From Loxodes magnus (Eukaryota; Ciliophora; Karyorelictea; Loxodida; Loxodidae): a DNA stretch of 64,000 bases. The position numbers were made by a program, and so were the translations under genes. Positions 1 to 64,000 of the stretch are shown piece after piece; positions within the stretch are counted from its first letter, which is position 1; each line of letters begins with the position of its first letter. The stretch is from contig CAMPDV010001940.1 in NCBI GenBank assembly GCA_946699065.1, positions 1 to 64,000 of the forward strand. The letters run 5' to 3'. The notes beneath the pieces are model-generated. The model made no database searches, had not been told where the DNA came from, and worked only from the letters and a program-made list of their open reading frames with translations.

Positions 1-3000
1 GTATAATCATAACTTCCCGATACGATGAACTCTGAATCACTGGATATAGCCACAGATGATACATAATGTGTGTGACCACTCATGGTCTTACAGGTACCTG
101 TCTTGACGTCCCATGGTCTCACCGTATAATCATGACTTCCCGATACGATGAACTCTGAATCACTGGATATAGCCACAGATCTAACATAACTAGTGTGACC
201 ACTCATGGTCTTACAGGTACCTGTCTTGACGTCCCATAGTCTCACCGTATAATCATAACTTCCCGATACGATGAACTCTGAATCACTGGATATAGCCACA
301 GATCTAACATAACTAGTGTGACCACTCATGGTCTTACAGGTACCTGTCTTGACGTCCCATAGTCTCACCGTCTTATCATAACTTCCCGATACGATGAACT
401 CTGAATCACTGGATATAGCCACAGATCTAACATAACTAGTGTGACCACTCATGGTCTTACAGGTACCTGTCTTGACGTCCCATAGTCTCACCGTCTTATC
501 TCTACTTCCCGATACGATGAACTCTGAATCACTGGATATAGCCACAGATCTAACATAACTAGTGTGACCACTCATGGTCTTACAGGTACCTGTCTTGACG
601 TCCCATAGTCTCAACGTCTTATCTCTACTTCCCGATACGATGAACTCTGAATCACTGGATATAGCCACAGATCTAACATAACTAGTGTGACCACTCATGG
701 TCTTACAGGTACCTGTCTTGACGTCCCATAGTCTCACCGTCTTATCATGACTTCCCGATACGATGAACTCTGAATCACTGGATATAGCAACAGCATATAC
801 TTAATGTGTGTGACCACTCATGGTCTTACAGGTACCTGTCTTGACGTCCCATAGTCTCACCGTATAATCATAACTTCCCGATACGATGAACTCTGAATCA
901 CTGGATATAGCCCACAGATGATACATAACTAGTGTGACCACTCATGGTCTTACAGGTACCTGACTTGACGTCCCATAGTCTCACCGTCTTATCATAACTT
1001 CCCGATACGATGAACTCTGAATCACTGGATATAGCCAGCGATCTAACATAACTAGTGTGACCACTCATGGTCTTACAGGTACCTGTCTTGACGTCCCATA
1101 GTCTCACCGTCTTATCTCTACTTCCCGATACGATGAACTCTGAATCACTGGATATAGCCACAGATTATACATAATGTGTGTGACCACTCATGGTCTTACA
1201 GGTACCTGTCTTGACGTCCCATGGTCTCACCGTATAATCATGACTTCCCGATACGATGAACTCTGAATCACTGGATATAGCCACAGATCTAACATAACTA
1301 GTGTGACCACTCATGGTCTTACAGGTACCTGTCTTGACGTCCCATAGTCTCACCGTCTTATCATGACTTCCCGATACGATGAACTCTGAATCACTGGATA
1401 TAGCCACAGATCTAACATAACTAGTGTGACCACTCATGGTCTTACAGGTACCTGTCTTGACGTCCCATAGTCTCACCGTCTTATCATGACTTCCCGATAC
1501 GATGAACTCTGAATCACTGGATATAGCAACAGATCTAACATAACTAGTGTGACCACTCATGGTCTTACAGGTACCTGTCTTGACGTCCCATAGTCTCAAC
1601 GTCTTATCTCTACTTCCCGATACGATGAACTCTGAATCACTGGATATAGCCACAACATAAACATAATGTGTGTGACCACTCATGGTCTTACAGGTACTTG
1701 TCTTGACGTTCCATAGTCTCACCGTCTAATCATGACTTCCCGATACGATGAACTCTGAATCACTGGATATAGCCACAACATAAACATAATGTGTGTGACC
1801 ACTCATGGTCTTACAGGTACTTGTCTTGACGTTCCATAGTCTCACCGTCTAATCATGACTTCCCGATACGATGAACTCTGAATCACTGGATATAGCCACA
1901 GATGATACATAACTAGTGTGACCACTCATGGTCTTACAGGTACCTGTCTTGACGTCCCATAGTCTCACCGTCTTATCATGACTTCCCGATACGATGAACT
2001 CTGAATCACTGGATATAGCCACAGATTATACATAATGTGTGTGACCACTCATGGTCTTACAGGTACCTGTCTTGACGTCCCATAGTCTCACCGTATAATC
2101 ATAACTTCCCGATACGATGAACTCTGAATCACTGGATATAGCCACAGATGATACATAACTAGTGTGACCACTCATGGTCTTACAGGTACCTGACTTGACG
2201 TCCCATAGTCTCACCGTCTTATCATAACTTCCCGATACGATGAACTCTGAATCACTGGATATAGCCAGCGATCTAACATAACTAGTGTGACCACTCATGG
2301 TCTTACAGGTACCTGTCTTGACGTCCCATAGTCTCACCGTCTTATCTCTACTTCCCGATACGATGAACTCTGAATCACTGGATATAGCCACAGATTATAC
2401 ATAATGTGTGTGACCACTCATGGTCTTACAGGTACCTGTCTTGACGTCCCATGGTCTCACCGTATAATCATGACTTCCCGATACGATGAACTCTGAATCA
2501 CTGGATATAGCCACAGATCTAACATAACTAGTGTGACCACTCATGGTCTTACAGGTACCTGTCTTGACGTCCCATAGTCTCACCGTCTTATCATGACTTC
2601 CCGATACGATGAACTCTGAATCACTGGATATAGCCACAGATCTAACATAACTAGTGTGACCACTCATGGTCTTACAGGTACCTGTCTTGACGTCCCATAG
2701 TCTCACCGTCTTATCATGACTTCCCGATACGATGAACTCTGAATCACTGGATATAGCAACAGATCTAACATAACTAGTGTGACCACTCATGGTCTTACAG
2801 GTACCTGTCTTGACGTCCCATAGTCTCAACGTCTTATCTCTACTTCCCGATACGATGAACTCTGAATCACTGGATATAGCCACAACATAAACATAATGTG
2901 TGTGACCACTCATGGTCTTACAGGTACTTGTCTTGACGTTCCATAGTCTCACCGTCTAATCATGACTTCCCGATACGATGAACTCTGAATCACTGGATAT

Positions 3001-64000: not shown

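Follow-up and report, generated by a model that had tools for sequence, protein, structure and literature searches.

The window, by which we mean the whole stretch of 64,000 nucleotides analysed here, lies on a contig of 91,727 bp (C1940) from Loxodes magnus. It is occupied by a tandem array on the reverse strand, and nothing except the array was seen in it. TRF reports a single array over positions 6-64000 with a period of 123, 520 copies and 94% matches. When framed from GGT (GHT...), the window contains 519 complete units, 500 of which are 123 bp long, 15 are 124 bp and 4 are 122 bp. The array continues through the contig from end to end, which holds 745 complete units, 726 of exact length. 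The features of the window are listed below, where TAR stands for TAA or TAG.

1..64000, reverse strand: 123-bp units in tandem, with one WD40 repeat (41 aa) per unit (TRF, unit parsing, PF00400)
3644, reverse strand: start of a unit with TGA at residue 21
10092..10952, reverse strand: seven units modelled as a predicted 7-blade beta-propeller (AF2, pLDDT 92.2, pTM 0.89)
12631..26283, reverse strand: second longest TGA-free stretch, 4550 codons, with 19 TAR codons read as Gln
26158..26405, reverse strand: a pair of neighbouring 124-bp units, starting at 26405 and 26281, that share a one-base insertion of A, which breaks the frame
26364..49448, reverse strand: longest TGA-free stretch, 7694 codons, with 35 TAR codons read as Gln (table 6)
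51252, reverse strand: start of the other unit with TGA, here at residue 23
51252..63925, reverse strand: part densest in TAR codons, indels and singleton units (the coordinates mark where its last and its first unit start)
54204, reverse strand: start of the unit in which TAG takes the place of the WD40 Trp codon (residue 30)

The units are WD40 repeats as judged from a match to the profile PF00400 above its cut-off (5.1e-73) and from the predicted propeller fold. The Pfam domain was found in 7 stretches of 7 window units, and the AF2 model of seven units has its best PDB match in 7bif, with a TM-score of 0.92. In this model, columns 4-5 are placed just before the first strand and columns 23-25 between the second and the third strand. 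No close relatives were found in two protein searches, where the best identities were 54% and 57% among the 120 matches listed in each, and a search of contigs gave 9 loci with 28-44% identity. A search with one exact 69-base pattern and another with one protein, made to test for a viral origin, retrieved no viral contig.

The units of the window can be sorted into 36 N-terminal and 29 C-terminal haplotypes, which combine into 119 joint types; C1940 as a whole contains 149 distinct exact-length unit types. Blocks of units have been duplicated, including a block of 27 units at a lag of 25 and a block of 24 units at a lag of 24. With its 91.7 kb, 745 units and block duplications, C1940 is a long homogenised tandem array of the kind by which satellite DNA is defined. 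Length changes of one base, but none of three, are seen in 19 of the 519 window units, and many of these indels are one doubled base. The original prediction makes no mention of them. No indel was found in the 226 units of C1940 beyond position 64,000. The part from 51252 to 63925 contains 8 frameshift units, 39 singleton unit types and 50 units with TAR or TGA among its 104 units.

Under the standard code, the longest stop-free frame in the window is 877 aa. Codons were counted for each unit residue in the exact-length units, leaving out the 19 indel units. TAA was found at residue 5 in 62 and at residue 7 in 9 of the 500 units, and TAG at residue 25 in 67 units and at residue 30 in a single one. 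TGA is present in two units, at residue 21 in one and at residue 23 in the other, so that 127 of the 500 units contain TAR or TGA and 373 contain none of the three codons. In the entire contig, with its 726 units of exact length, the counts are 110, 9, 132 and 2 for TAR at residues 5, 7, 25 and 30, and 6 for TGA. The original prediction, made from the letters alone, had placed about 145 TAR codons by hand count at three residues only, 6, 8 and 26. These are 5, 7 and 25 in the present numbering, to which the TAG at residue 30 has to be added, and the count comes to 139 in the exact-length units. Its observations that TGA is nearly absent in frame and that no CAA or CAG occurs in frame both hold, the latter for all 726 exact-length units of C1940.

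The genome searched comprises 705,730,643 bases in 7843 contigs. In-frame TAR codons occur in all 68 matches to HSP70, and 32 of the 33 near-full-length matches (at least 590 of 599 positions) are free of TGA. TGA is found in 18 of the 68 matches, of which 12 represent one repeated partial copy on contig C854 with six TGA codons each. A complete HSP70 frame of 646 aa contains 31 TAR codons and ends in TGA, an eRF1 frame contains 21 and also ends in TGA, and TAR is present in 142 of 142 members of the kinase family among the matches listed. Rather than ending in TAA or TAG with none in frame, the HSP70 and eRF1 frames are thus full of TAR codons and end in TGA.

The amino acid specified by these codons was read from conserved columns, in which one residue accounts for at least 70%, in a sample of four HSP70 genes (of eight fetched loci) and 60 homologues (of 120). 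TAA corresponds to Gln in 19 of 26 such columns and TAG in 9 of 16, which gives Gln in 28 of 42 TAR columns and Tyr in none of the 42. The other 14 columns are Lys (8), Asn (2) and others (4). In the controls, CAA corresponds to Gln in 23 of 25 columns and TAT to Tyr in 19 of 22. Over the same four genes, the Gln codons are TAA (78), CAA (55), TAG (44) and CAG (5). In the nuclear code of this genome, UAA and UAG therefore encode Gln and UGA ends genes, as seen in the three genes for which the end was read: one HSP70, one eRF1 and a gene for a kinase-WD40 protein on contig C512. If the array is read at all, the TAA and TAG codons of the window are Gln codons. The original prediction had taken UAR to be sense, either Gln or Tyr, and suggested conserved genes as the place to look; HSP70, eRF1 and the kinase family bear out sense, and the conserved columns of HSP70 decide for Gln. 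Its argument for Tyr was that sister copies carry TAT at the same three sites, and TAT does occur at residues 5, 7 and 25 in the window. At residue 7, however, the nearest haplotype free of TAR has TCA (Ser), one step from TAA, and with no Tyr column in HSP70, where this reading is refuted, the probability that UAR encodes Tyr is negligible.

The reassigned code is not new, having been published for karyorelicts (PMC11441545, PMC4967479). Their nuclear code, NCBI table 27, is described for L. magnus and Parduczia sp., with UAA and UAG as Gln and genes ending in UGA (PMC11441545, PMC4967479), and UGA in L. magnus is either a stop or Trp under this table (PMC11441545). Our results agree on UAR as Gln and on UGA at the gene ends, and nothing different was found, while the signs of UGA as Trp are only indirect here. 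The observations that bear on it are one internal TGA in the gene on C512 and a TGA in 90 of 775 units of a sister family, family A, at the column that matches residue 5 of the window. Trp is the commonest residue (24%) at this column in 1480 homologous repeats. A gene that we read as pelota-like (L028) also holds a TGA, which proved nothing about UGA as Trp.

Two eRF1 matches are located about 35 kb apart on contig C196, at 20499 (L026) and 55399 (L027). The original prediction had proposed to look for changes in eRF1. L026, which was translated, has RAQNIKS in the position of the human motif TASNIKS, and FLCENTF in that of the human YLCDNKF. They are not taken as proof of the code, since Swart et al. 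2016 found no simple link between changes in the eRF1 motifs and the code. A single strict pattern for tRNA-Gln with a UUA or CUA anticodon gave no matches and was too strict for this to count against the reassignment. In an HSP70 tree of 56 sequences, the copies from this genome group with those of the heterotrichs Stentor and Blepharisma in one clade (100/100). Ciliates are the nearest eukaryotes among the named rows, none of which is a karyorelict. Karyorelicts are the sister group of heterotrichs. The HSP70 genes themselves form tandem arrays of near-identical copies on C45 (448-619 kb), C86 (537-568 kb) and C854 (136-167 kb). Partial copies or copies with TGA make up some of those on C86 and many of those on C854.

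The positions of the TAR codons were compared with the variability of WD40 repeats in homologues. The homologues compared were 120 proteins, of which 116 have at least six repeats and 49 have a group of at least six near-identical repeats. In these 49 proteins, the five most variable columns are, in order, 23, 5, 7, 4 and 25. These five of the 41 columns contain 12 of the 27 common non-synonymous alleles in C1940 (p=3e-5). Over all 41 columns, the variability in the window shows a weak rank correlation with that in the homologues (0.21, p=0.19), since the window hardly varies in the remaining columns. The variable columns of the window are 5, 7, 23 and 25 (also 4 and 8), which correspond to codons 7, 9, 25 and 27 in the NWD repeats of Podospora shifted by two. 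The latter, which map to the upper face of the propeller, are under positive selection (PMC1805685, PMC2873952). The codons that carry most of the TAR are thus hypervariable ones in the WD40 repeat. By analogy with the recognition face in Podospora they would be recognition positions, which would explain the clustering.

The homologues have 18 to 20 residue types at these columns, Gln and Tyr both included, and the fit of either residue is therefore uninformative about the code. For this reason, and because nothing but the array was seen in it, the window by itself could not have revealed the code. Only with the context of the genome can a reassigned code be read safely from a repeat array. 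The new Gln codons may have arisen through single base changes from a Tyr codon at residue 5, a Ser codon at residue 7 and a Lys or Tyr codon at residue 25, and may then have spread through block duplication of units. The original prediction had cautioned that the independent origins could be few. The window indeed holds three alleles that have spread, besides a fourth that is rare; however, nine units read on contig C670 add TAG besides TAA at residue 5 and TAA at residue 23, which are further TAR alleles at hypervariable codons. A RIP-like origin of the stops by changes from C to T was set aside, as the neighbouring codons are TAT, TCA and AAG rather than CAA or CAG.

The relationship to kinase genes was traced through family A, the sister arrays of which consist of 126-bp units that vary at the same columns as the units of the window family. 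Among 775 units of family A, three variable columns contain TGA, in 98, 90 and 64 units, and TAR is found for the most part at a single column, with 19 units. At two conserved Gln columns the codon is CAR in 772 and 768 units, respectively, and is replaced by TAR in 2 and 5. Five units of family A lie within an intact-looking gene on C512:

L050:2902-4814: kinase-WD40 gene on C512, with 25 TAR codons, 23 CAR codons and a terminal TGA

The gene encodes a protein kinase (PF07714, 2.8e-57) and, after a predicted 20-nt GT-AG intron, seven WD40 blades. Its one internal TGA is located in the fifth blade, in the context SV-TGA-SIAIS. Family A is thereby linked to kinase-WD40 genes. A similar arrangement is seen at C1503:1-600, where a kinase linker and a 20-nt GT-AG stretch, placed as in C512, are followed by WD40 units that run to the end of the contig. 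In the literature searched (Loxodes, ciliate satellites, WD40), no description was found of the size of the arrays or of the kinase link of the sister arrays.

Searching the genome with the kinase query gave at least 142 scored matches out of 4542 first-look candidates. Among the 41 listed matches that lie no more than 20 kb from a contig start, 32 are directed outward, compared with 58 of 101 on that strand elsewhere; the p-values for this bias (Fisher, 0.02; binomial, 0.0004) are too small because the copies are related, and one of the 41 was read. An outward orientation at contig starts is expected if long WD40 regions follow the kinases. The translated 2.4-3 kb upstream of the 5' ends of three arrays, on C9, C620 and C119, contain no kinase. 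The arrays on C1503 (L040, 11.98 kb) and C1832 (L047, 35.18 kb) have the same end point, at which a TGA replaces the WD40 Trp codon, and the AT-rich flanks beyond it are homologous. On both contigs there is also a kinase match about 10.6 kb downstream of the array end on the same strand.

The window family itself is present on many contigs, as seen with a seven-unit query for which the matches listed are a lower bound. A frame of 13,854 codons without any stop is reported for C528, 4 kb of which were read. No kinase followed by units of the window family was seen, and the contigs retrieved with the two queries are disjoint among the matches listed. On C3043, the listed matches to the window family form mirror pairs with coordinates that sum to about 58,739, which looks like one long inverted palindrome, either an assembly hairpin artefact or real. 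Contig C3727 is collinear, in reverse, with two segments of C1940, one at about 65-69 kb and the other at about 8-11 kb, and has them more closely spaced than C1940. Either it is an allele in which the array is shorter, or it reflects a different path taken by the assembly.

We consider it most likely that the array on C1940 arose by satellite-like expansion of WD40 units derived from genes linked to kinases. The unit family would have come from genes that encode a sensor-like protein with a kinase and WD40 repeats, the intact gene being one of sister family A, and unequal exchange may have amplified the units into arrays of hundreds. An expansion of this kind is favoured over one intact frame because the indels of one base break the frame repeatedly and because young variants show no purifying selection: 15 of 76 are synonymous where 22.4% are expected (p=0.68; window family and family A pooled). 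The indels may be assembly errors, and the neutral look of the young variants could also come from errors. Since UGA is conditional, being a stop or Trp, an open frame alone is no evidence of coding, and to judge from the sequence the array in the window is probably not expressed. For the joint reading, with UAR as Gln, TAR at hypervariable sites, amplification of units derived from kinase-WD40 genes, and a window that is a satellite-like expansion rather than an intact frame, we estimate a probability of about 0.7.

Several observations speak for coding or against a satellite, among them the long TGA-free frames, variation that sits on recognition codons, the outward kinases, the common TGA end of C1503 and C1832, and the long frame on C528. 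One rival reading is a giant functional gene. C1940 would then encode the C-terminal portion of a protein in which a kinase is combined with hundreds of WD40 repeats, translation would pass through UAR (and through UGA as Trp), and the indels would be assembly errors. The outward kinases, among them that of C1503, where units run off the contig end after the kinase linker and intron, agree with such a gene, as do the TGA-free stretches of 7694 and 4550 codons and the 226 units without an indel. We nevertheless regard it as unlikely, at about one chance in five: 19 of the 519 units in the window have indels of one base and none of three, no kinase is seen in the 2.4-3 kb translated upstream of the 5' ends of three big arrays, and the sole intact gene that was read has seven blades. 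Less probable still is that the array serves as a silent donor archive, which keeps WD40 variants that gene conversion copies into short expressed kinase-WD40 genes. The location of the variation on recognition codons would suit an archive, as would the finding that the intact-looking gene and long arrays draw their units from one near-identical family (family A). On the other hand, the diversity in the window, at 119 joint types, is modest next to the 18 to 20 residue types in homologues, and no recipient gene of the window family was seen. A dead repeat full of stop codons under the standard code would account for what the window alone displays, namely the indels, the 127 of 500 units with TAR or TGA and the neutral young variants, yet as to the code it is refuted by the in-frame TAR codons of the HSP70, eRF1 and kinase genes, which leaves it next to no probability, although the array itself may be non-coding.

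The assembly of the L. magnus macronuclear (MAC) genome is 706 Mbp, of which 231 Mbp were assigned to low-complexity tandem repeats, and in the authors' view misassembly of such repeats accounts for the difference in size between their two assemblies (PMC11441545). The window would probably be annotated among these repeats, whereas it is read here as WD40 code; the term 'WD40' is absent from the main text of that paper (PMC11441545). On a broader scale, we put forward tentatively, as a suggestion with the odds well against it, that L. magnus has a genome-wide combinatorial repertoire for WD40 recognition. In it, genes for kinase sensors would continue into recognition arrays of near-identical units, up to hundreds of them, that vary mainly at ligand-facing codons, with UAR (Gln) and perhaps UGA (Trp) among the alleles, and with arrays that are translated as giant sensors or used as cassettes that re-arm the kinases. 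Part of the low-complexity repeat would then be repertoire. If so, a ciliate genome contains, under the label of low complexity, a very large stock of hypervariable WD40 units that is at least partly tied to kinases. Such a stock would be comparable in kind to the fungal allorecognition genes, and far larger. Independently of this suggestion, codons with a reassigned meaning are among the variants by which recognition repeats differ.

Kinase-WD40 proteins from metagenomes and bacteria (e.g. P0019 and P0038, kinases according to the names in the source) combine a protein kinase with many similar WD40 repeats, as in the sister family. Their identity to the unit protein of the window is 42% and 35%, respectively, and they are single proteins rather than arrays of tens of kilobases. 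The NWD and HNWD genes of Podospora anserina (het-d/het-e/het-r) resemble the window in their near-identical WD40 units with two pairs of variable codons at the same spacing, and the units of these genes are homogenised by exchange (PMC1805685, PMC2873952, PMC12222747). However, the Podospora genes contain NACHT (and HET) domains, with 11 as the usual number of conserved repeats, whereas in Loxodes a protein kinase accompanies the repeats of the sister family and the arrays comprise hundreds of units.
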